A program made the translations under genes and the position numbers. A stretch of 26,441 bases of DNA from a virus: IMG/VR virus record IMGVR_UViG_3300007345_000225, positions 1 to 26,441 of that record, one strand, 5' to 3'. The notes under the pieces are model-generated. The model searched no databases. It was not told where the DNA came from and saw only the letters and a list, made by a program, of their open reading frames with translations. Below are positions 10,721-26,441 of the stretch, one piece after another; position 1 is the first letter of the stretch, and each line of letters begins with the position of its first letter.

Positions 10721-11551
10721 ATGGAAAATTTAAATATATCTGTAGTATTACCAATAGAGTCGTCAAAACATAAAAATTTTGATTTACTTTTCAAATCTTG
10801 TATTACATCAATCAGTAATCAAGTTAAAGAATGTCCTAAAAGAGGAAAGTGTGTGGAGGATATTGAGTTAGTCCTTGTGCACTCAGGAGAAGAGTCCTTA
10901 GAGTCATATATAAGTAATTTTGATTTTAGTGGTATAACTACTAATATCATACATAATACAGGTGAAACCGACTTTTGTAGTCAAATAAACTTGGGTGTTG
11001 AAAAATCAACTCATGAATGGGTAAGTATTTTTGAATTTGATGATGAGTACTCAAGTATTTGGTTTAAGAATGTTTCTAGATATATCGATTCATACCCTGA
11101 GGTTAAAGCGTTTTTACCTTTAGTTGTTGATACCGATGAGAAAGGGGTGTTCGCTGGATTCACAAATGAAGCTACGTTTGCCGCCAACATGAATAGTGAG
11201 ATTGGATATCTAACAAACGAAGTTTTGTTAAACTATCAAAATTTTCAAACAAGTGGTATGGTATTTAAAAAGTCACTATTCGATGATTTTGGAGGGTTTA
11301 AAAAATCAATTAGGTTAACTTTTGTATATGAGTTATTATTAAGATTAACTTATAATTCAACAAAAATTATGACTATTCCAAGAATAGGGTATAAACATTC
11401 TAATATGAGAGAAGGTTCAGTATTTTGGAACTACAAATTTGGTTCTACTCCGCTTACAGAAGATGAGGTCGCTTTTTGGATTGATTCAGCTAAAAAAGAA
11501 CATTTCTTTAAAGAAGATAGAAATATAAAGTATGAATTAGGTGAAGTTTAA
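10721..11551 (+). CDS. Glycosyltransferase family 2-like
   Basis: The fold starts NISVVLPIES, then a helix, and ends the nucleotide-binding half with EWVSIFEFDDEYSSIWF, where D107, D108 and E109 take the place of the D-x-D metal motif of GT-A enzymes. After this, KAFLPLVVD and QTSGMVFKKSLFDDFGGFKK match the acceptor half of GT2 proteins, including the G-F-x-x-x-x stretch after the second strand. Length (276) fits a single-domain family-2 transferase. There is no membrane segment, so it should act in the cytoplasm. The stop overlaps the sigma factor start by one base (TAATG), which joins the glycosyltransferase run to late-transcription control. Confidence 0.75.
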   Translation: MENLNISVVLPIESSKHKNFDLLFKSCITSISNQVKECPKRGKCVEDIELVLVHSGEESLESYISNFDFSGITTNIIHNTGETDFCSQINLGVEKSTHEWVSIFEFDDEYSSIWFKNVSRYIDSYPEVKAFLPLVVDTDEKGVFAGFTNEATFAANMNSEIGYLTNEVLLNYQNFQTSGMVFKKSLFDDFGGFKKSIRLTFVYELLLRLTYNSTKIMTIPRIGYKHSNMREGSVFWNYKFGSTPLTEDEVAFWIDSAKKEHFFKEDRNIKYELGEV

Positions 11552-12294
11552 TGACGATTTCTGGAGATAATAAAAATTCCGAAGTCAAAAAACGGGGGAG
11601 AAAGGCTAAGGCTCAAAATTATTTTGATGTGAGGGAAGAAAAAGCAGTAAGAATGTTTCTTACTGCTTCTACGTGGAATGAAAAAAATCAAATTTATAAT
11701 GAGTATTTAAGGGCTCCTTTAGACAAAATGATTGAGTCTATTATTAGGAGATATAAGTTATATCGAAAAAATATGGATTTTGTTGATATCCACAATGATA
11801 CTCATTCATTTTTAATGACTAAAGTTGAAAAGTTCAAACCCGACAAAAACAAAAAAGCCTATTCCTATTTTGGTACTATATGTAAAAATTATCTTATGGG
11901 TCAAATTATTAAAGACCAAAAAGAACAAAATAGAAAAATATCGTATGAGGATATTACAACTAAGTTAGAGAGTAGACCTGATATGATATATTATTTGGAG
12001 TACGAAAAAGTAACTGCGGAACAAGTAATAAAAGAGTTTTTAAAAGAACTAGAAAAATTTATAGAAGATTCTTCTTTAAATAATAATGAAATAAAATTAG
12101 GATATGCTTTATTAGAGTTATTTGATAATTATGAAGAAATTTTTATAGGTACTGACAATAATAAGTTTAATAAAAACATTATCTTACTTTCTTTGCGTGA
12201 AATGACTAATATGAGTACTAAAGAGATTAGAACTTCTATGAAAAAATTTAAAAATTTGTATTTTGATTTAACAGTTAAGCTTAATAATTTATAA
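11551..12294 (+). CDS. 55: Late transcription sigma factor, gp55-like
   Basis: Residues about 56-128 resemble sigma region 2: a helix (LDKMIESIIRRYKLY), then HSFLMTKVEKFKPDKNKKAY and SYFGTICKNYLMGQI, where F-x-P-x-K-x-x-x-A-(Y/F)-S-Y-(F/L)-x-T-I-x-(K/R)-N-Y-L is typical of T4-like late sigma factors. The C-terminal part (about 210-240, LREMTNMSTKEIRTSMKKF) has a helix-turn-helix-like look. In T4, gp55 gives RNA polymerase specificity for the TATAAATA late promoter and acts with gp33 and the sliding clamp. At 247 residues it is longer than T4 gp55, partly because of a basic N-terminus with KKRGRKAK. The likely target element in this phage may be the TATTTATA octamer listed separately. Good family call, moderate residue-level detail. 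Confidence 0.8.
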   Translation: MTISGDNKNSEVKKRGRKAKAQNYFDVREEKAVRMFLTASTWNEKNQIYNEYLRAPLDKMIESIIRRYKLYRKNMDFVDIHNDTHSFLMTKVEKFKPDKNKKAYSYFGTICKNYLMGQIIKDQKEQNRKISYEDITTKLESRPDMIYYLEYEKVTAEQVIKEFLKELEKFIEDSSLNNNEIKLGYALLELFDNYEEIFIGTDNNKFNKNIILLSLREMTNMSTKEIRTSMKKFKNLYFDLTVKLNNL

Positions 12295-17957: not shown

Positions 17958-18200
17958 ATGATAAGATTGACAGAAGACCAGTTAGTTGAAATGATACAAC
18001 AGATTATAACTGAAAAGAAGAAAAAAAAGAAAAAGAAAAATACTTTATGTGCTAGAGGAAAATCAGCAGCTAAGGCTAAATATGATGTATATCCATCAGC
18101 CTACGCCAATGGTTACGCTGTTCAAGTTTGTAAAGGTACTAAACCTGGTTTAGATGGTAAAAAAAGATGTTCAGGAAAATATTGTTCGGGTAAAAAATAA
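17958..18200 (+). CDS. Lysine-rich basic protein, putative internal head protein (80 aa)
   Basis: The chain has three parts. Residues 1-19 (MIRLTEDQLVEMIQQIITE) form an acidic amphipathic helix ending in I-T-E, a match to the T4 gp21 cut consensus (L/I)-x-E. Residues 20-27 are eight lysines, encoded by a run of A-rich codons that includes an eight-base A tract. Residues 29-80 form a small basic domain with four cysteines (LCARGKSAAKAKYDVYPSAY, then VCKGTKPGLDGKKRCSGKYC); the K-x-(D/S)-V-(Y/W)-P-S-A-Y-A pattern recurs in proteins of T4-like marine phages. After cleavage the product would be very basic and could bind packaged DNA. Its start is 2 nt after the fibre gene, so it is co-transcribed with it. 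Packaging and cleavage are inference. Confidence 0.65.
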   Translation: MIRLTEDQLVEMIQQIITEKKKKKKKKNTLCARGKSAAKAKYDVYPSAYANGYAVQVCKGTKPGLDGKKRCSGKYCSGKK

Positions 18201-18403: not shown

Positions 18404-18663
18404 TACTCCTCTATAAGTATTACCAAGTCCGTAGTACCCTTTATAACTCTATGAAAGGTTTCTTTCGGTATATCAAAAGTCACACCCTTTTTTAAAGGTA
18501 TAGGTAATTTATTATCCATCTGAAAATACCAATCGGTATCTTCGAGAACTTCTACTAAACGATTCTCCTTATCTCTATGCCAAACGAGTTCTTTCTCAGG
18601 AATATCTTGAGAAAAAACTCGTTTGAATTTATTAGATGATATATTTTCTTGTGAGTATATCAT
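18400..18663 (-). CDS. Small cupin-like protein (87 aa)
   Basis: The core resembles a small single-domain beta barrel: ELVWHRDKENRLVEVLEDTD then WYFQMDNKLPIPLKKG and FDIPKETFHRVIKGTTDLVI. The first histidine-containing strand and the F-H-R-V near the end occupy the places of the two cupin motifs, although the usual H-x-H-x4-E triad is incomplete. I place the start at the ATG at 18663: it shares a base with the TGA of the upstream gene (TGATG), whereas a longer form would need TTG at 18669 or GTG at 18666. Tight coupling to the 303-residue basic protein suggests joint expression. Metal or small-molecule binding is possible; no substrate can be named. Confidence 0.65.
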   Translation of the reverse strand: MIYSQENISSNKFKRVFSQDIPEKELVWHRDKENRLVEVLEDTDWYFQMDNKLPIPLKKGVTFDIPKETFHRVIKGTTDLVILIEEY

Positions 18664-19574
18664 CACCAAAATCTACCTGAAACATTTTTACCGAAATCTT
18701 TATGGGCTCTACACGCCCAATACCCCGCCTTTGTCTTATCTTTTTTCTTTGCACACTGATGTCGAGCCGCAAATGACTTTCTTGCATCAGGGTCATTCCA
18801 CTTAGCGGTCATTGTAGGTGAGCCATAACTAACTTTCTTTATTTTACCTGTTTTAGGATTTCTAACGTACACATACCACTTTTTAGAACCACCTGATTTA
18901 GGTTTATTAAGAGACACTTCTTTACCTTTATATTCGGCCTCATTTAAAGTTTCATATTCAAAAGGGAAATCTAACGCCACTGTTTTACCACTTGTTAATT
19001 TTACAAAAGTACCCGCATCAGAATTTAAAATCTCCTCATCAAAATTATTAAATCTATATCCTTCTTTATATAGTTCTCTAGCCTCATTAATAAGGTCAAA
19101 GTATTTTTCACTACCATGTCTAAATGCGTTATCTGTAATAGATAAATTATTATCAAAGTGATATTGTAGTTCTTCAGAGATTTGTATTTTATTTAATATA
19201 GACTTATTAATACTTTCTCTAATTATATCTTTTATATACATAGATTCATTCTTTTTTTTCTTTTTATAGTTTTTAACTTTAATACGAGTAGGTTTTTTAC
19301 CTTTGGTATCTTTTGAACGTCCTTTTTCTTTTTCCCTTTTTCTTCTACAAGCAGAATCTTTAGCTGATTGAGACATTTTACCAGCAACACCTGCCGCTCT
19401 ACATACAGGATAACCTCCTTTATCACTATCACTTCTACCACAAGAAGGGTGACCACCTCCTTTTTTCTTTTTACAGATATTAACCCATGGACCTTTAGGT
19501 TGTTTTGAACCCTTCTTTTTTTTCTTTTTACCAAACCATACGGCTAAATCTTCTGATAAAATATACTTATCCAT
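18663..19574 (-). CDS. Three-module basic protein, putative processed internal head protein (303 aa)
   Basis: The protein is built from distinct modules. Residues 1-15 (MDKYILSEDLAVWFG) are a short leader with L-S-E, then six lysines (16-21). Residues 28-82 form a Cys/Lys-rich domain (WVNICKKKKGGGHPSCGR, YPVCRAAGVAGKMSQSAKDS, ACRRKRE), resembling DUF5872-type phage domains. Another lysine tract (104-108) leads to an acidic helical middle (112-212). Residues 213-303 are a second basic domain with KKWYVYVRNPKTGKIKKVSY, RKSFAARHQC and AGYWACRAH. Four sites match the gp21-type cut consensus: I-R-E|S (120), I-S-E|E (134), I-N-E|A (164) and L-N-E|A (212); I-N-E|A is the same tetrapeptide as in the capsid protein. 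A prohead polyprotein cut into DNA-binding pieces is plausible but unproven. Confidence 0.65.
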   Translation of the reverse strand: MDKYILSEDLAVWFGKKKKKKGSKQPKGPWVNICKKKKGGGHPSCGRSDSDKGGYPVCRAAGVAGKMSQSAKDSACRRKREKEKGRSKDTKGKKPTRIKVKNYKKKKKNESMYIKDIIRESINKSILNKIQISEELQYHFDNNLSITDNAFRHGSEKYFDLINEARELYKEGYRFNNFDEEILNSDAGTFVKLTSGKTVALDFPFEYETLNEAEYKGKEVSLNKPKSGGSKKWYVYVRNPKTGKIKKVSYGSPTMTAKWNDPDARKSFAARHQCAKKKDKTKAGYWACRAHKDFGKNVSGRFW

Positions 19575-20110: not shown

Positions 20111-21895
20111 TTATCTTAACTCTCTTAGGTCGAATGTTCTAACACCATCAACTGTAATCTTACCGTAGAAACGGTTGTTCACCATCTTCTTAGCGTATCT
20201 TGTCATGATACCCTTGATTGGTGTAAAGTTGAATGGGTTGTACATTGTTGGAGTCAACTGTAGAGGTACGTATGGAGCGTATACATATCCTGTGTCAAGT
20301 AATGATGAACCCTTGTGTCCCAACAATACTGTGTTTGGTGGGAAGTATGGGTCACGGTAAACTTGATATCTACCTGATAATGTACCAACTCTTTCGATAC
20401 CCATGTTGTAGTTGTCCTGGTCAGGAGCCGCGTTTGAAACGTGGAAGTACTCAAGGTCATCGAAGATTGCTGAAATCTCTGAAGATACAACAATCCAGTT
20501 AGCACCACCTCTTAGAGTTGATTTATGGATTTGTGCAGAAATCTGATTGATTGCAGTAATCAATGTCTGATTCCAATCCTTTTGGTTGTAGTTGACAGAA
20601 CCGTTAGATACTCTCTTCCAACCGTTGTAGTCCCATCTTAATGACCAAGCCGCACCTTTTCTTAAGTCTCTTAAAATCTCACGGTCAATCTCAGCAGCAA
20701 CCTGTTCTGACAACAATGCTGTCAATTCAGCTTCCGCGTCGATGTTGTGGAATGCAGAGACGTCTTGTGCGAGTTCTGGTGACCACTGAGCTCTTAACTT
20801 TCTTTCTGTAACAGAAACAGTAACAGCTTCTAAGTCGAATGAAACTTCACCGATAGCGTCTTCAAATTCTAATGTCTCATAAACTCTGTATGAACCAACG
20901 AAGGTATCTCCTGATGCAATTGTTGAACCTGTGTATCCGTCTAATGACTGTGTTCCAATCTCAACTGGAGTTGAGAAATCAACCTCCAAGTAGATTTTAC
21001 CTTCAACATCACATACATTGTCGTACTTTCCGCCAGGACCAGGGTAAGAACCACTATAGAAAGTAGTCTGTTGCTCGTTACCATAGTTAACGATACCCTT
21101 ACCGTACTTCTGAGTTACAACTCTAAAGTTATAATAAGTGTCAGTAGCGCCGGTTTTGTAAGTTTCTAATGATGCTAAGAAGTCCTCAGTATCCATTTCT
21201 TGTCCGTCAGGACCTATTAATTTACTAGCACCTGCTGATGAGAATCCTGTCATCATAAAGATTAATGACCTTACGTTTGCACTTGCTGCAGTACCTGTAC
21301 CACCAGACGCGTAACTTAAAGCAACATCTAGTGTAGTTGCGGTTAAAACACCGTTGTTCCATCTAACAGGAACTAATGTTGGTGTTTGCTCTGCGTAAGC
21401 ACCCTTCGAGTAATCGAACAACCCAGCTGGGTCTGAATTTGGTGTACTACCTTCGTAGAAACGGTCATATAAGTTAGTTGAATTTGTGTAACCTGAATCT
21501 GTTGTTGATGGACCGTTTGGTGCTCCGAATGGAGGAATGTGAGTTCCATCAGCGTTTCTGTTCTGAATCTTTGGAACAAAGTAGAACAACTTACCGATTG
21601 GTAGGTTCATAGCTTGAACTGAAACGATGTCGTTAGCCAATAACTTAGAGAAAACTCTTCTTACGATTGGGAAAACAACTGTTTCGAAAGAACCTGAACT
21701 GTCAGATGCTGCCGCTTCGTTTATCAAATATGATGCTTGGTTCTCATATAACTGAGCCATATTTTCTTTAGTGTGGCCTTTAAGACCATCGAGGAACCCT
21801 AATTTGTCCCACTTGTTAATTGTGTCCTCCTTGATAACCTTAAGGTGCTTAAGACCGATGTTACCAACTAGACCTGATTCTAATAATGCTCCCAT
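20111..21895 (-). CDS. 23: Major capsid protein, gp23-like
   Basis: The 594-residue protein has the T4 gp23 layout. Residues 1-60 are a helical N-terminal propeptide ending in YLINE, and I58-N59-E60 followed by A61 fits the gp21 protease consensus; T4 gp23 is cut at residue 65. After the cut come FPIVRRVFSKLLANDIVSVQ and AMNLPIGKLFYF, the counterpart of the gp23 segment with V-Q-x-M-N-x-P-x-G. The central part is rich in Gly/Ser/Thr with a YAEQTPTLVPVRWNNG strand. Near the end, NPFNFTPIKGIMTRYAKKMV matches the gp23 C-terminal strands. It is the HK97-fold shell protein. The gene follows gp22 in the same operon after a 27-nt gap and ends at a strong terminator; its composition is visibly less AT-rich than its neighbours, consistent with high expression. 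Confidence 0.95.
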   Translation of the reverse strand: MGALLESGLVGNIGLKHLKVIKEDTINKWDKLGFLDGLKGHTKENMAQLYENQASYLINEAAASDSSGSFETVVFPIVRRVFSKLLANDIVSVQAMNLPIGKLFYFVPKIQNRNADGTHIPPFGAPNGPSTTDSGYTNSTNLYDRFYEGSTPNSDPAGLFDYSKGAYAEQTPTLVPVRWNNGVLTATTLDVALSYASGGTGTAASANVRSLIFMMTGFSSAGASKLIGPDGQEMDTEDFLASLETYKTGATDTYYNFRVVTQKYGKGIVNYGNEQQTTFYSGSYPGPGGKYDNVCDVEGKIYLEVDFSTPVEIGTQSLDGYTGSTIASGDTFVGSYRVYETLEFEDAIGEVSFDLEAVTVSVTERKLRAQWSPELAQDVSAFHNIDAEAELTALLSEQVAAEIDREILRDLRKGAAWSLRWDYNGWKRVSNGSVNYNQKDWNQTLITAINQISAQIHKSTLRGGANWIVVSSEISAIFDDLEYFHVSNAAPDQDNYNMGIERVGTLSGRYQVYRDPYFPPNTVLLGHKGSSLLDTGYVYAPYVPLQLTPTMYNPFNFTPIKGIMTRYAKKMVNNRFYGKITVDGVRTFDLRELR

Positions 21896-21922
21896 TTTAA
21901 TATTTTTTAAGGAAATTTATTT

Positions 21923-23314
21923 TTATTTTAATTTACTCATTAAATCTCTCATTCTTAAGAACTGAGGATTTTCATAAGTTTTACTTTCGATAAGATTGTT
22001 TGCTGAACCTTTAGTTGGAGTTTTAGTAACTTTAGATTGTACTGATTCAGTAACAACGTTAGTTTCTTTTCCACCTAAATCTTCTTTAACTGTCTTATAT
22101 AAAGATTTTGATTCTTTAAGAGTCTCGACACCATCGAAACGTCTTAAAATATTTATTTTCTCTTGCTTCGTAGTAGAATGCTCAGTGAATAAACGAGTAG
22201 CGTAAGCTAAATTAGAGTTGAAAACAGCCACTTCGTTAAGCTTCTCTTTGAAAACATTAAGTGCCTTACGGTACTCTTCATTCTTTTCTCTAAGTTGTTT
22301 AACTTCTGCTTTTAATTCTTCATTTTCTCTTACCGCGGGTCTTAATCTACCCTTAGCATAAGTTCTCACCTCTTCAGGTGCAGATTTAGCGTTTGGGTAC
22401 TTTCGTAAAGACGCATTAGTTCTAGCAGTTTCAGTGGTTTCACCTTCGTTACTTTCGTAATCTCTGTGTGACTTAGACTCATCGCCTTTGTTCCCACCGT
22501 AATCACCTTCGTTAGTTTCGTAATCTCTGTGTGACTTAGACTCATCGCCTTTGTTCCCACCGTAATCACCTTCGTTAGTTTCGTAATCTCTGTGTGACCT
22601 AGACTCATCGCCTTTGTTCCCACCGTAATCACCTTCACTCATTTCTTCTTCGTCAGCTTCTTCTTCACCAATCTCGATTTCATATACCACTTCTTCTTCT
22701 TCTTCCATGTGGTCTTCTTCTGTGTACTCACCTTCATATGCTTCTTCTTCTGATTCACCTAACTGAATAACGTATTCAGCATCGGTCTCTTCGTCTGATA
22801 AATGAACGTCACCACCGTCTTGCTTTACAATGATACCGTCTTCTTCACCCATAGCTTTAAATACCTTTAGTATTTCGTCATCAGAAGCTGCGGTTAAATC
22901 GAGAGGTAAAAGAACCTCTTCTTCATCATCAACTTCCAAGTCGTCACCAGGTAAATCGGTCATTAACATTTCCTCATCACCCAAGTCTAACTCTTCGTCG
23001 TTATCAGATTCCATATCGTCACCCATATCAAGACCTAAGTCTTCAAGAGCGTCTTCCATGTCACCTTCTGCGTCATCAACTTCAACCTCATCTTCAACGT
23101 CAATTTCTTCCTGTTCGGACATTTCAACATTTTCTTCTTCAGTTTCTGTTTCAGACATTTCAACCTCTTCTTCACTAAGAGATTCTTTTACTAATTCACT
23201 GATTTCTTCCTTCATAGTAGAAGCAAGTATTCCTTTTGCATTATTAGTTATGGCTTCTTGTAGATTTTCCATCTGCAATAAAGCTTCTTCAACTAGGTTT
23301 TTTTTGTCTGCCAT
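21923..23314 (-). CDS. 22: Prohead core scaffolding protein, gp22-like
   Basis: Position just upstream of the capsid gene and the sequence form support a gp22-like scaffold. The N-terminus (MADKKNLVEEALLQMENLQE) is helical. About residues 45-235 are extremely acidic (runs of Glu and Asp with E-E-x-V-E-M-S-E), then three copies of a 21-residue repeat, then a basic coiled-coil C-terminal half (KAEVKQLREKNEEYRKALNV and so on), ending with FLRMRDLMSKLK. T4 gp22 is also an acidic, helical core protein cut to peptides by gp21. Here the protein is 463 residues, larger than T4 gp22 (about 270), because of the acidic and repeat regions. I chose the ATG at 23314 over a TTG at 23329. Several L/I-x-E sites are visible. 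Confidence 0.75.
   Translation of the reverse strand: MADKKNLVEEALLQMENLQEAITNNAKGILASTMKEEISELVKESLSEEEVEMSETETEEENVEMSEQEEIDVEDEVEVDDAEGDMEDALEDLGLDMGDDMESDNDEELDLGDEEMLMTDLPGDDLEVDDEEEVLLPLDLTAASDDEILKVFKAMGEEDGIIVKQDGGDVHLSDEETDAEYVIQLGESEEEAYEGEYTEEDHMEEEEEVVYEIEIGEEEADEEEMSEGDYGGNKGDESRSHRDYETNEGDYGGNKGDESKSHRDYETNEGDYGGNKGDESKSHRDYESNEGETTETARTNASLRKYPNAKSAPEEVRTYAKGRLRPAVRENEELKAEVKQLREKNEEYRKALNVFKEKLNEVAVFNSNLAYATRLFTEHSTTKQEKINILRRFDGVETLKESKSLYKTVKEDLGGKETNVVTESVQSKVTKTPTKGSANNLIESKTYENPQFLRMRDLMSKLK
22448..22636 (-). repeat. Three tandem 63-nt repeats in the scaffold gene
   Basis: Three in-frame 63-nt units (22574-22636, 22511-22573, 22448-22510) encode the 21-residue unit that starts EGDYGGNKGDES and continues with (K/R)SHRDYE(T/S)N. 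The copies differ by very few bases. The repeat is hydrophilic and mixed-charge. Near identity suggests recent expansion or gene conversion. Confidence 0.95.
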
Positions 23315-23350
23315 ATTATTTTTTTGCAAAAAAGTTTATTATAGTTATCA

Positions 23351-23358
23351 TATAAATA
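23351..23358 (-). promoter_or_regulatory. Candidate late promoter element TATTTATA (minus strand)
   Basis: Minus-strand TATTTATA ends 36 nt before the gp22 ATG at 23314. It lies between the terminator of the preceding gene and gp22, the right place to start a separate gp22-gp23 transcript. Confidence 0.45.
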
Positions 23359-23396
23359 TGTTAAATATGAAAAAAGTGTTTTTTTAATAACTTTAA

Positions 23397-23425
23397 GCAA
23401 AAAAAAATCGGGGATAACCCCGATT
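23397..23425 (-). terminator. Intrinsic terminator after the DUF4494-like gene
   Basis: Minus-strand stem AATCGGGG / CCCCGATT (23406-23413 with 23418-23425) with a 4-nt loop is followed by nine T residues on that strand. It lies 23 nt after the stop of the minus-strand gene at 23449 and would separate the gp21 transcript from gp22. Confidence 0.85.
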
Positions 23426-23448
23426 CAAAAATCTTTTTTTATTTTAAA

Positions 23449-23658
23449 TTACTCATACACCTCGTCGATTTTACTCTCAACACACGCTGTGATTCTCCAA
23501 TCGTAAACAAAATCCTTAAAGTTTTGAGTAACTTTAGCTTCAACGTCAGTTACGTTAAAACCCTTAACAAGTTTTTCTTCTCTAACTTTTTTAATTTTAC
23601 CTGAGTTTTCATCAGGGAGGTCATACTGAACTTTTGCCACAAAATACTTTTCGTCCAT
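23449..23658 (-). CDS. DUF4494-like small protein (69 aa)
   Basis: The form is a single compact alpha/beta domain: an opening strand KYFVAKVQYDLPDENSGKIK, a second strand KVREEKLVKGF, a helix NVTDVEAKVTQNFKDF, and a final strand DWRITACVESKIDEVY. This matches my recollection of the DUF4494 family of Bacteroidota and their phages (W-F-x-x-K-V-x-Y ... T-E-A-E-A-x-I). The function is unknown. It sits between gp21 and gp22 in a T4-like head operon, 19 nt after gp21, and is followed by a terminator. I would regard it as a host-group marker rather than a confirmed head protein. Confidence 0.65.
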   Translation of the reverse strand: MDEKYFVAKVQYDLPDENSGKIKKVREEKLVKGFNVTDVEAKVTQNFKDFVYDWRITACVESKIDEVYE

Positions 23659-23677
23659 GTTTTTTTATTTAAAAGGT

Positions 23678-24400
23678 TTAATAACCTAAATAATCGGAAA
23701 GTCTTTTCATTAAGTCAACACTTTTACCTAAACCACCATCAATCTTTGGTTCTTGTGACCTTAACTGAGTCTCTTCCTCTAAACTTTCTTCATACTTACC
23801 CTTATCATTTTTATCTAAGAATAGATATGCACCTGGTGTAGATGGAGATGAAACTAAATCAAAACAGATTAATTCAAAATCGTCTTGTACTTCATTTCTT
23901 TCACCTTTCTTTACTAATGAGCCAACACCACGAGAAGAAACACCCATAGTGACTCCTTGTCTCATTAAATTAGCCGCTTGGTCACCTGGACACGAAACTA
24001 CACCCTCTGTATGAAATCCAGGTGATGTCAATAATTTAATCTTTCCCATAAGTGTGTTACCTTCCCACCATACGTCTGTGATTAAGTGTGAGACACGGTC
24101 CAAATCTATCAAAGATGATTCAGGGTGGTTAAGTTCAGATATTGATAATCCTTTTTCGATTGCTTTTTTATAAACGTCAGCTTCTCTACGTAAAATCTTT
24201 TCAGGATACACTCTACCGTTTCTATTGGGGGTATCGTATTTTTGTAACGTCGCGTAAAACTCAAATGGTTTTGAATGGTCTAATTGACCATAAGACTCTT
24301 TTATAACTTGTGAATTACGGCTATCGTTAGGATTTACAAATCCGGCATCCCACTCTACTAAGATACCTTTACCTGAATCGTTTGGTCCTAAAATCTTCAT
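23678..24400 (-). CDS. 21: Prohead core protease, gp21-like
   Basis: The protein matches the T4 gp21 serine protease family. The region ELNHPESS (His92) corresponds to the catalytic histidine in T4 (E-L-D-H-P), and MGVSSRGVGS (Ser155 or Ser156) is the catalytic serine motif G-(M/V)-S-S-R. Flanking conserved elements are NRNGRVYP (59-66), VWWEGNTLMGKIKLL and FDLVSSPSTPGAYLF. The C-terminal 45 residues are charged and may be removed on activation. It would cut scaffold and capsid precursors after (L/I)-x-E in the prohead. It is preceded by TATTTATA and the minus-strand gene at 24421, and followed by the DUF4494-like gene. Confidence 0.93.
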   Translation of the reverse strand: MKILGPNDSGKGILVEWDAGFVNPNDSRNSQVIKESYGQLDHSKPFEFYATLQKYDTPNRNGRVYPEKILRREADVYKKAIEKGLSISELNHPESSLIDLDRVSHLITDVWWEGNTLMGKIKLLTSPGFHTEGVVSCPGDQAANLMRQGVTMGVSSRGVGSLVKKGERNEVQDDFELICFDLVSSPSTPGAYLFLDKNDKGKYEESLEEETQLRSQEPKIDGGLGKSVDLMKRLSDYLGY

Positions 24401-24410
24401 GTTTTTTCTT

Positions 24411-24418
24411 TATAAATA
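24411..24418 (-). promoter_or_regulatory. Candidate late promoter element TATTTATA (minus strand)
   Basis: Minus-strand TATTTATA ends 10 nt before the gp21 ATG at 24400, within the 20-nt gap after the upstream gene. The short gap would give a nearly leaderless gp21 transcript. Confidence 0.4.
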
Positions 24419-24420
24419 TA

Positions 24421-24864
24421 TCAGACCACTTCTTTTGTCGTTTTACTCTTGTGTATTTCAAAATACTTCATACCTCTTAAACAATCGGTGTATACTGCTT
24501 GAATGACTTTTTTAATATTTTCTTTTAGTTTTGTTGATTTAAAATCTAAGTGATTTTTAAGATATAAGGTGATTTCTAAGTTCATAAAACTTCTTTTACC
24601 TCTTTGTATTCCACTACTTCTTAAATCTAAATCCACTATATTATGTTTTTCGAAAACTTCGGTATTTAAAACTTCTAATAAGACGTGTTTAATATTACGC
24701 TCCATAGTCCCTGTCGCTCTATCCCAATTCTCAAACTCTTTTATGGGTTCTACCCATGATTGTAAAACAATATAAACTGTTTTTAAATTTTTGGCATCTA
24801 CTGTACCGTAATAACATTTTGAGTCATTGAATATTTTTAATTGTGACGTTTTTCCTTTTTTCAT
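24421..24864 (-). CDS. Hypothetical head-module protein (147 aa)
   Basis: The protein is mixed alpha/beta and basic. It opens with strands SQLKIFNDSKCYYGTVDAKN and LKTVYIVLQSWVEPI, has a helix with ATGTMERNIKHVLLEVLN, then DLDLRSSGIQRGKRSFMNLE and ITLYLKN, and ends with a lysine-rich helix (KENIKKVIQAVYTDCLRGMK). The alternation resembles a small alpha/beta sandwich, such as dsDNA-phage head or tail completion proteins, but no family is recognised. It lies where T4 has gp67/gp68 between the portal and gp21 genes; those are small core proteins, but the sequence gives no evidence of homology. It is transcribed away from the bS21 gene across a 98-nt gap. Confidence 0.6.
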   Translation of the reverse strand: MKKGKTSQLKIFNDSKCYYGTVDAKNLKTVYIVLQSWVEPIKEFENWDRATGTMERNIKHVLLEVLNTEVFEKHNIVDLDLRSSGIQRGKRSFMNLEITLYLKNHLDFKSTKLKENIKKVIQAVYTDCLRGMKYFEIHKSKTTKEVV

Positions 24865-24888
24865 ATAAATTCATACTTACAAAGTTTA

Positions 24889-24945
24889 TTGATTTGTATT
24901 AAATATACTATATTTGTAGTTATATGTCAAAAACATATATTTATA
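24889..24945 (+). promoter_or_regulatory. Candidate promoter region for the bS21 gene
   Basis: Two elements precede the ATG at 24963. TATATTTG at 24909-24916 fits the Bacteroidota -7 consensus, with TTG at 24889-24891 (17 nt upstream, slightly short for a -33 element). TATTTATA at 24938-24945 ends 17 nt before the ATG and is the shared putative late element. The gene may therefore be readable by host and phage sigma factors. No SD sequence is present before the ATG. Confidence 0.4.
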
Positions 24946-24962
24946 GATAAACAAATTTATAT

Positions 24963-25148
24963 ATGCTAATTATTAAGGTGAAAAATAAGAATATAGAGGC
25001 GGCTCTTAAAAACTACAAATATAAAGTTTACAAGACTAAGCAACTTCAGAACCTTAATAAAAATAAGGAGTACACAAAGGATTCAGTGGAAAAAAGAGAA
25101 AAAATGAAAAAAGCAATTTATGTGAATAAGAAGAGAAACGACCTTTAA
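24963..25148 (+). CDS. rpsU: Phage-encoded ribosomal protein bS21
   Basis: The 61-residue protein begins MLIIKVKNKNIEAALKNYKY, matching the bS21 opening strand and first helix (L-I-I-x-V-x-x-x-x-x-I-x-x-A-L-x-x-(F/Y)-K). It ends with the second helix SVEKREKMKKAIYVNKKRN, matching the Bacteroidota form S-V-x-(K/R)-R-E-x-x-x-x-A-x-Y-x-x-K-x-R. bS21 binds the 30S platform by the 16S rRNA 3' end, and in Bacteroidota bS21 helps hide the anti-SD sequence. A phage copy could replace the host protein on ribosomes and change which mRNAs initiate. The gene lies alone on the plus strand inside the minus-strand head operon, with its own promoter candidates. Family call good; effect on translation inferred. 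Confidence 0.85.
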   Translation: MLIIKVKNKNIEAALKNYKYKVYKTKQLQNLNKNKEYTKDSVEKREKMKKAIYVNKKRNDL

Positions 25149-25161
25149 GAGTTAGAATACA

Positions 25162-25392
25162 TTATTCTTCAACTCCTTTACTTCTTGAAAATTTTTCAAG
25201 TGTGGTAAATCCTAACCCCGCACCTACAATATACATCATACCGTCCCACACATATTTTTGTAACGGTATATCCATAAAAATGTTAGCAACAAAGGCAATA
25301 CACATCATGAAAAATGCGATTATGGTAACAAACCTTTTTGATGACTTTTGACCATCAACGTCACCTAATAATGATGTAAAAAATCTTTTCAT
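25162..25392 (-). CDS. Small two-transmembrane protein, holin-like form (76 aa)
   Basis: A basic N-terminus (MKRFFTSLLGDVDGQKSSKR) leads to a first membrane helix (FVTIIAFFMMCIAFVANIFM), a short loop, and a second hydrophobic segment (WDGMMYIVGAGLGFTTLEKF) with a charged tail. Two helices with short cytoplasmic ends are the class II holin pattern. No lysis enzyme is seen next to it, so a holin function is only a possibility; an inner membrane assembly or superinfection factor is the alternative. The start overlaps the upstream stop (TAATG), so it is coupled to the 244-residue gene. It converges with bS21 across a 13-nt gap without a clear hairpin. Confidence 0.6.
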   Translation of the reverse strand: MKRFFTSLLGDVDGQKSSKRFVTIIAFFMMCIAFVANIFMDIPLQKYVWDGMMYIVGAGLGFTTLEKFSRSKGVEE

Positions 25393-26126
25393 TATAACCC
25401 CTTTTCTAATTGCTTAAGTCTATAAAGAGATGTAAGGGTATAATCAGTTTCGTTTATTTTATTTAAAGTTTTTTGAATCTTTTCTTTAAGTTCGTTATCG
25501 TTAGATTCATTTAAATTATTACTTAATTTACTATAGACAGATTTCTTAGACTTATCTATTTCCTCTATTAATTGGTTCTTATTTAGTGACGTAAAAAATT
25601 TAAACTCCTTTTTCTCTTCCTCATTAAGTGAAGAAAACTCTTTATTAAATGTTTTAGTGGCAATCTGTAACATAGAAGAAATAGGTATATTCAAACTAGA
25701 TTCATTTATTTCAACTATATCATTACTTAATAAATTTTTCTTAATTCTATTTTTAGATTCTAATAATGACTCTAGATTTTTAGTTACATTTTTAGTATAA
25801 ACTTGAATATCGATATCACTGTAATTGTTATTAGTTTCAATAACTAATTGGTTAATCCACTGACTAATCTTATTAATTTCATTTTGGTTATCATCAATTA
25901 AACTTCTTAGTTGTTCAAACGATTCAGAGATATACTCGTCTACAATAGTTTCGTTTAAACCTTTTTTAGATGATAATTCATCGTAAATAAAATATACTTC
26001 ACATAAGTCACTATTTTCAAGTATCATAGATTTAAATGACTTAATATGAGTTTTAAAATCTTGTTTTCCGTAAGTTGATTCGAATAACTTTTCAATCTTG
26101 GTTTTGATGATTCCGAATGATGTCAT
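25392..26126 (-). CDS. Hypothetical helical protein of the head module (244 aa)
   Basis: The protein is nearly all helical: MTSFGIIKTKIEKLFESTYG, DEYISESFEQLRSLIDDNQN, VTKNLESLLESKNRIKKNLL, LIEEIDKSKKSVYSKLSNNL and LKEKIQKTLNKINETDYTLT. Heptad-like spacing suggests coiled coils. It lies between the portal-like C-terminus and a small membrane protein, roughly where T4 has the core proteins gp67/gp68, so a scaffold-core or portal-associated role is plausible by synteny, not by sequence. It has its own TATTTATA element 12 nt before the start. The N-terminal EKLFE (L-F-E, residue 16) fits the (L/I)-x-E cut pattern, a weak hint of processing. Confidence 0.6.
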   Translation of the reverse strand: MTSFGIIKTKIEKLFESTYGKQDFKTHIKSFKSMILENSDLCEVYFIYDELSSKKGLNETIVDEYISESFEQLRSLIDDNQNEINKISQWINQLVIETNNNYSDIDIQVYTKNVTKNLESLLESKNRIKKNLLSNDIVEINESSLNIPISSMLQIATKTFNKEFSSLNEEEKKEFKFFTSLNKNQLIEEIDKSKKSVYSKLSNNLNESNDNELKEKIQKTLNKINETDYTLTSLYRLKQLEKGL

Positions 26127-26138
26127 GATATTTTTTTA

Positions 26139-26146
26139 TATAAATA
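26139..26146 (-). promoter_or_regulatory. Candidate late promoter element TATTTATA (minus strand)
   Basis: Minus-strand TATTTATA ends 12 nt before the ATG at 26126, in the 45-nt gap after the portal-like gene. It is the sixth exact copy of the octamer. Confidence 0.4.
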
Positions 26147-26171
26147 TCATGTAAGTAGTATTATTCACAAT

Positions 26172-26441
26172 TTAGTCATTTAGAAGTGAATTCAACTTTT
26201 TTTCTATTTCACCTAAAGACTGTCTACCTTTAGATAAGTCTAATATACTTTTACCTTTTATTAAGTCGTCCTCGACTAATAAATCTAAGTCTTTATTTCT
26301 TACTAGTCTTTCGGTTGGAGTTTCTTCGGGCGCAGTGTCTCCCCCTCCTTCATCACCACCTAAATCACCACCTAAATCACCACCTAAATCACCACCTAAG
26401 TCACCACCTAAGTCACCACCTAAGTCACCACCTAAGTCACC
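26172..26441 (-). CDS. C-terminal part of a large head gene, possibly portal (gp20-like), continuing past the window
   Basis: On the minus strand a frame is open from the window edge to TAA at 26172-26174, 89 codons. It begins with a repeated G-G-D-L, continues GGDEGGGDTAPEETPTERLV and ends KSILDLSKGRQSLGEIEKKL then NSLLND. In T4 the order portal-67-68-21-22-23 precedes the capsid gene; here the order is this gene, 244-aa, 2-TM, 147-aa, gp21, DUF4494-like, gp22, gp23, so a gp20-like portal is the best guess by synteny. The C-terminal sequence itself is low complexity and cannot confirm it. Confidence 0.5.
   Translation of the reverse strand, partial: GDLGGDLGGDLGGDLGGDLGGDLGGDLGGDEGGGDTAPEETPTERLVRNKDLDLLVEDDLIKGKSILDLSKGRQSLGEIEKKLNSLLND
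26353..26441 (-). repeat. 12-nt tandem repeat encoding G-G-D-L
   Basis: At least seven complete 12-nt units (plus-strand TCACCACCTAA(A/G)) run from 26353 to the window end, with a part unit at 26437-26441. Three units end in A and four in G, in two separate blocks. They encode G-G-D-L in the C-terminal part of the partial minus-strand gene. The true length is unknown because the repeat leaves the window. Confidence 0.97.

Follow-up and report, generated by a model that had tools for sequence, protein, structure and literature searches.

Judged from its sequence, the open reading frame at 24963-25148 of a viral DNA is a true gene for ribosomal protein bS21 of the Bacteroidota type, and two aspects of its regulation are new here. 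The gene has the putative late-promoter word of the head protease, scaffold and portal genes, and it lacks the extended Shine-Dalgarno (SD) sequence that precedes the rpsU genes of Flavobacterium-like hosts. The DNA, referred to as the window, is 26,441 nt long (IMG/VR record IMGVR_UViG_3300007345_000225, positions 1 to 26,441). The gene is a true bS21 in a known setting, and the addition is a testable point on regulation.

Of all ribosomal protein genes, bS21 is the one most often reported from phages (Chen et al., PMC9723584; McNutt et al., PMC9976891). Chen et al. (2022) described 47 genomes with predicted Bacteroidota hosts and with bS21 on the reverse strand within the same region; as in the window, it lies opposite the terminase, portal, protease and capsid genes and between two hypothetical genes, position 54 is aromatic, and the phage proteins cluster apart from host bS21, with divergence in the first helix. 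The phage gene is transcribed with structural genes, and those authors propose that its product selects phage transcripts, while also raising packaging (PMC9723584). McNutt et al. (2023) showed that bS21-free ribosomes favour rpsU by way of its extended SD, and speculated on phage bS21 and a phage protease (PMC9976891). An earlier note on this DNA, made from the letters alone, had put forward the placement and logic of the gene as worth a test. Both are in Chen et al. and the anti-SD circuit is in McNutt et al., so that placement, Bacteroidota hosts, late expression and the mRNA-selection idea are already published. In another host phylum, the bS21 of Pelagibacter phage HTVC008M enters E. coli ribosomes stably, and ribosomes with the viral protein are nearly inactive in vitro, at about 5% activity (Mizuno et al. 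2019, PMC6375957). The terms 'promoter' and 'autoregul' and an SD comparison of bS21 genes were not found in the text of Chen et al., nor was an SD comparison for phage bS21 found in open-licence main texts that included PMC10783764, PMC10931766, PMC9578407, PMC13157829 and PMC12619734.

The features of the bS21 region of the window are as follows.
20111-21895, minus strand: major capsid protein gp23, from family matches
21923-23314, minus strand: prohead scaffold, from position and a homologue in Flavobacterium phage immuto
23678-24400, minus strand: T4-like prohead protease (Peptidase_S77), from a family match
24421-24864, minus strand: n147, a conserved 147-aa gene divergent from bS21, from locus comparison, alignment and a fold model
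24902-24930, minus strand: putative promoter of n147, TTGACA (24925-24930), 17 nt, TATATT (24902-24907)
24909-24916, plus strand: TATATTTG, which fits the Bacteroidota -7 consensus TAnnTTTG; putative second bS21 promoter
24938-24945, plus strand: TATTTATA, putative phage late-promoter word of bS21, 17 nt from word end to ATG
24963-25148, plus strand: bS21 gene, 61 aa, from translation, Pfam, PDB matches and residue alignment; its Tyr53 corresponds to Tyr54 of F. johnsoniae bS21
25162-25392, minus strand: n76, a small, probably membrane, protein of 76 aa, convergent with bS21, from the reading frame and locus comparison
25392-26126, minus strand: n244, a conserved 244-aa protein adjoining the portal gene, from the reading frame and locus comparison
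26172-26441, minus strand: probable portal gene, C-terminal end, cut by the window edge; gp20 is shown in relative L036

The reading frame and its 61-residue translation are as the earlier note gave them, and the assignment to bS21 holds. In a Pfam profile search the protein matched PF01165 (Ribosomal_S21) with E 5.6e-9 and 36 bits (gathering score 27), and its residues 4-55 aligned to positions 2-54 of the 55-position profile, nearly the full length. The NCBIfam equivalog TIGR00030 gave 18.8 bits, under its cut-off of 28.95; all three host bS21 controls passed this cut-off, as did three of five phage relatives (37, 57.1 and 36.1 bits; the other two scored 25.7 and 21.5). The profile search proposed in the earlier note thus supports the family and stops short of the equivalog: by these profiles the protein is a member of the homologous family, and TIGR00030 gives no warrant for identical function. 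The match to the PHROG S21 family was weak (E 0.0095). In the PDB, the protein matched best to the bS21 chain of 9i5v (E 7.7e-9) and next to that of 7jil (E 6.5e-7), the Flavobacterium johnsoniae ribosome (PMC9723584). AlphaFold2 predicted two linker-joined helices, 11-33 and 40-60 (pLDDT 85, pTM 0.37), and Foldseek returned seven matches to this model, every one a ribosome chain and none significant (best E 0.69). The net charge of the protein is +13.

The Bacteroidota form that had been claimed is borne out by the key residue: Tyr53 aligns to Tyr54 of the 7jil bS21, a residue known in F. johnsoniae to stack on A1534 and to redirect the 16S tail (PMC9976891). Position 54 is aromatic or His throughout 114 distinct phage bS21 (Y 109, W 2, F 2, H 1), and K22, K40, S42, R46 and A52 are invariant among them. 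In 71 distinct host rows, P5, G9, R18, R21, F23, D24 and R30 are present in all and G27 in 70; the same eight positions are altered in the window and in most phage rows. Phage and host proteins diverge chiefly in the first helix and linker (F23 to V in 100/114, G27 to K in 95/114, T28 to Q in 93/114), a contrast sharpened by the search because both sets were gathered with peptide patterns that touch some of the contrasted positions and favoured those letters (e.g. KV[IQ]KTKQ). Uncorrected pN/pS was 0.05-0.14 between the window and nine relatives, with a median of 0.11 and a maximum of 0.35 over 44 pairs; the frame is really coding and under purifying selection. A tree of 85 rows, of the kind the note had suggested, placed 42 of 43 phage rows together and apart from hosts, which agrees with a separate phage group, albeit with weak support (SH-aLRT 82). 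A single clade of all 43 phage rows was not rejected (AU p 0.685), and the 64 columns resolve little.

All head genes at 20111-26441 are on the minus strand and bS21 is the sole plausible plus-strand gene in the block. This agrees with the isolated, opposite-strand position described before, and the gp23 capsid, scaffold and Peptidase_S77 protease beside bS21 confirm the T4-like head block. The portal fragment at 26172-26441 itself gave no family match; in relative L036 the portal is followed by a T4-type terminase, and TerL is outside the window. The stretch 20111-26126 is carried at 100% identity by a 71-kb IMG/VR contig and at 73-81% identity, in three main pieces, by a 270-kb IMG/VR contig, so that this T4-like phage is probably a jumbo phage. 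Going by sequence type, its host is probably a member of the Bacteroidota. The first 25 kb of the window had no near DNA match among 50,697 phage records. Flavobacterium phage immuto (NC_055915.1), a cultured T4-like phage, shares the terminase-portal-protease-scaffold-capsid gene order; its capsid is 42% identical over 56% of the query, which places a cultured phage of a Flavobacterium host among the capsid matches listed. Unlike the window, immuto has no bS21 in its whole 160-kb record, and a profile search of a 19.6-kb region of it found no homologue of n147, n76, n244 or n69.

Five scans of viral contigs with bS21 queries yielded 40, 308, 149, at least 477 and 12 relatives, of which the best 80 at most were kept per scan. 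These relatives, three records of the phages collection and the window made up 270 loci with bS21. After removal of L351 (no start) and of L002 and L262 (too little upstream), the remaining loci collapsed to 126 non-redundant ones: 123 came from IMG/VR, two (L121 and L123) came from the phages collection, and the last was the window itself. The head-block, opposite-strand arrangement of the phages of Chen et al. was found in the window and in 108/126 loci, with bS21 divergent from n147. Four loci showed the portal side only, and for 12 the retrieved flank contained no head gene. The bS21 of L255 is in the head operon on the same strand, and in L245 only the 76-aa neighbour is present, sharing the strand of bS21. 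One 72-kb viral contig (L340) has a bS21 that is 77% identical to Flavobacterium bS21 and lacks an SD; it is either a recent capture or host DNA within the contig.

The host-like and late promoter elements that the earlier note had pointed out, TATATTTG and TATTTATA, are on the bS21 strand, and both are conserved before the bS21 of relatives. Read in reverse complement, TATTTATA is TATAAATA, the T4 late box. Single sites of such words are not beyond chance in the AT-rich window (TANNTTTG, 37 found vs 39.8 expected; TATAAATA on either strand, 7 found vs 6.2 expected), and the evidence therefore rests on position and conservation. Six of the seven exact TATTTATA/TATAAATA sites immediately precede a gene and read as TATTTATA on the strand of that gene (12309, 19595, 23351, 24411, 24938 and 26139). 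The word TATTTAT was scored in distinct leaders, within 45 nt of the gene start (the first Met of the frame) and on the strand of the gene itself. It precedes the protease in 85/90 leaders, the scaffold in 78/82 and the portal in 72/77, n244 in 37/92, and n147 and the capsid in 1/94 and 1/73; dinucleotide shuffles across gene classes gave means of 0.4 to 10. Before bS21, it was found in 63/107 distinct leaders (shuffle mean 6.6, max 14) and TAnnTTTG, the Bacteroidota -7 consensus (PMC6847099, PMC9723704), in 45/107 (shuffle mean 8.3, max 13), although the loci are related by descent and counts set against shuffles overstate independence. The broader form TAYTTAT precedes bS21 in 83/107. Among non-overlapping genes other than bS21, the late word is on the gene's own strand in 257/525 and on the other strand in 41/525, and it precedes 7 of 22 genes of immuto. 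In T4 late promoters, an 8-bp TATA box precedes the start by about one turn (PMC2988020). The TATTTAT-type word is likely to be the late-promoter word of these T4-like phages, and its sharing by bS21 fits, as judged from DNA, synthesis of bS21 late, together with the head. Its near absence from capsid leaders and the sub-threshold match of the late sigma candidate weigh against this.

A short reading frame upstream of bS21 (ATGTCAAAA...) was considered as a leader peptide and rejected, because L006 is one base short of L005 in this stretch, which shifts the frame, and because the TTGACA of the n147 promoter falls in the same block. Elsewhere in the window, a 247-aa protein at 11551-12294 (plus strand) has a sub-threshold Sigma70_r2 match (E 0.014) and no PDB match; it is a candidate late sigma factor.

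The divergent gene, n147, encodes a conserved protein of some 140-155 aa, in which the YGT, W37, IVD-D and K-SF residues do not vary across 48 aligned rows. Its putative promoter, TTGACA-N15-19-TAnnTT, is present in the window and in 31/94 leaders in all (shuffle mean 0.3). TATAAATA on the minus strand was rejected as its late promoter, since the word is in just one of the 94 n147 leaders and the protease, scaffold, portal and bS21 genes have the word on their own strand. Three loci (L398, L412 and L428) have n147 and no bS21, so n147 can do without it. Going by description, the n147 gene is perhaps the bS21_CN of Chen et al.; they report an opposite-strand neighbour with matching expression that is missing from two phages without bS21 (PMC9723584). 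The AlphaFold2 model of n147 (pLDDT 88) had no Foldseek match in the PDB at E 0.001 or better, and VIA-align gave a best Z of 7.2, among unrelated folds. Against BFVD the best match was an uncharacterised Myoviridae protein (E 2e-11), followed by a tail completion protein (TM 0.34).

The lack of SD sequences noted earlier was confirmed by duplex energies with the 16S tail. The bS21 leader of the window pairs at -1.5 kcal/mol, short of the about -13 of a host-type extended SD, and 5/36 window genes reach -6 kcal/mol or lower. By this measure phage bS21 is like any other phage gene (6/117 at -6 or lower, against 26/525 other phage genes). Flavobacteriales host rpsU belongs to the same family and has the same anti-SD pocket residue; unlike the phage gene, it has the extended SD preferred by bS21-free ribosomes. 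All 80 Flavobacterium-like rpsU leaders, the best 80 of 563 matches to a Flavobacterium-type query and mostly from Flavobacteriaceae, pair at -13.1 to -19.4 kcal/mol. Four contigs of this set are labelled Lentimicrobium, Rhizobium, Limnohabitans and Pelagibacter; they are metagenome bins and probably misbinned. McNutt et al. report the extended SD in about 80% of Flavobacteriales (PMC9976891). A mixed Bacteroidota set was patchy, which disfavours a phylum-wide reading of the 80/80: of 23 usable loci, 7 reached -13, 11 reached -9 and 11 were weaker than -6, with 27 of 50 loci dropped for want of an ATG near the expected start (many may use GTG or TTG). In some Bacteroidota genomes bS21 was matched two or three times (L474 in G108; L481 and L482 in G123); L474 and L481, whose leaders pair at -1.1 and -8.0 kcal/mol, represent a second, divergent type.

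A different signal was found in a minority of phage leaders. AGGAG at -18 to -4 is present in 7/107 distinct bS21 leaders vs 1/423 others (Fisher p 7.8e-5). Six of the seven come from one sister sub-clade (L036, L156, L183, L184, L200/L189 and L226, of which L183 and L226 are nearly alike), and the seventh is L123, from the 735-kb phage LR756501. In those six, the spacing of AGGAG stays at 7-9 nt, and neighbouring bases vary. The motif before bS21 probably represents one or two events, and its enrichment in phages otherwise SD-less is suggestive and no proof. Of the 83 bS21 leaders with the late word TAYTTAT, 47 have it ending no more than 8 nt from the ATG. None of these 47 contains AGGAG, and all seven AGGAG leaders are among the other 36. 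An adenine pattern was also considered as a phage-specific initiation code. A is frequent in the window's 36 genes at -3 (24/36), -12 and -13; across the locus set (423 leaders) its frequency is 0.42 at -3 and 0.40 at -12, both at background, and 0.53 at -13, and the code was rejected.

We lean towards a joint reading in which a phage bS21 made late would replace host bS21 on the 30S subunit, hide the anti-SD and escape host feedback. Its grounds are the family, the key residue, the placement, the missing SD, the shared late-type word and purifying selection, with outside evidence from the co-transcription with structural genes seen by Chen et al. and the stable entry into ribosomes seen by Mizuno et al. 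bS21 would be made alongside the head proteins from the phage late promoter, in some clades also from a host-type promoter, and would substitute for host bS21 on the 30S platform. There, Tyr53 would keep the 16S 3' tail sequestered, and SD-less initiation would continue. The SD-less leader of the phage gene would be translatable by bS21-replete ribosomes and, because it has no SD, would place the gene outside the host bS21 feedback loop. Any preference for phage mRNAs would sit in the altered first helix and linker. We infer the host, late expression in the window's phage, incorporation, replacement and any such preference. If phage bS21 hides the anti-SD, host rpsU should be held down, and the phage protein perhaps silences the host bS21 feedback. 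Replacement could inhibit rather than redirect translation, given the low activity of the ribosomes of Mizuno et al.

The earlier note had gone further and suggested a variant bS21 favouring SD-less phage mRNAs, which is not established. Host Bacteroidota mRNAs are likewise SD-less (PMC9976891, PMC6847099); a missing SD therefore cannot mark phage against host transcripts, and hiding the anti-SD alone cannot favour the phage.

A variant that we hold as tentative is that phage bS21, translated without an SD and still hiding the anti-SD, fills vacant 30S subunits and thereby shuts off host bS21 synthesis, leading to phage-marked ribosomes. If so, new and recycled ribosomes would both be phage-marked with no need for a protease, and the phages of the AGGAG sub-clade would follow another strategy, their bS21 gene competing within the host loop. 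It seems unlikely, on the other hand, that phage bS21 is a plain supply, with infection outgrowing a loosely bound, exchangeable host bS21, the phage topping it up and mRNA choice unchanged. The residue at position 54, aromatic or His in 114/114, agrees with such a role, as do phage genes that are SD-less to the degree reported for host genes and a late-type promoter that suits a need for volume. Neutral supply predicts neither the first-helix and linker differences that phage proteins share (F23, G27 and T28, partly search-favoured) nor the weakly supported separation of 42/43 phage rows from hosts.

Those same differences lie where mRNA selection would call for them, mainly in the first helix and linker as in Chen et al. 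(PMC9723584), and an altered N-terminal helix and linker could bias the 30S towards late mRNAs of the phage, perhaps towards ones with very short leaders. If transcription starts about one helical turn past the box, as in T4, the 47 bS21 leaders whose putative late word ends at most 8 nt from the ATG would yield near-leaderless mRNAs. However, the word is that close in just 49/209 other phage genes, and the host-type adenine pattern seen in the window is absent from the 423 leaders, so no phage-specific initiation code was found; we consider selection of this kind distinctly improbable. A role in the particle or head assembly, with the basic 61-residue protein packaged (as Chen et al. too have raised; PMC9723584) or used off the ribosome, would suit its charge, its gene's place in the head block and the linkage of n147 (bS21 in 77/80 loci of an n147 search, the best 80 of at least 596; n147 fused to the prohead protease in L305, unless by assembly fault), but is very hard to credit given the conserved ribosomal fold, including the Tyr that stacks on the 16S tail, and immuto, which has the same head-gene order and no bS21.

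The circuit of host bS21 in Bacteroidota has been worked out in a genetic system, and the missing SD makes the role of the phage gene testable with reporters. SD-less and SD-bearing phage bS21 genes in neighbouring sub-clades provide a ready comparison.

Very lysine-rich proteins with lysine runs are encoded near the capsid gene at 17958-18200 (plus strand) and 18663-19574 (minus strand). The scaffold contains GGNKGDES-SHRDYE repeat units at about 22366-22638 (minus strand), and GDLG repeat units are found in the coding sequence of the probable portal end at 26172-26441 (minus strand).
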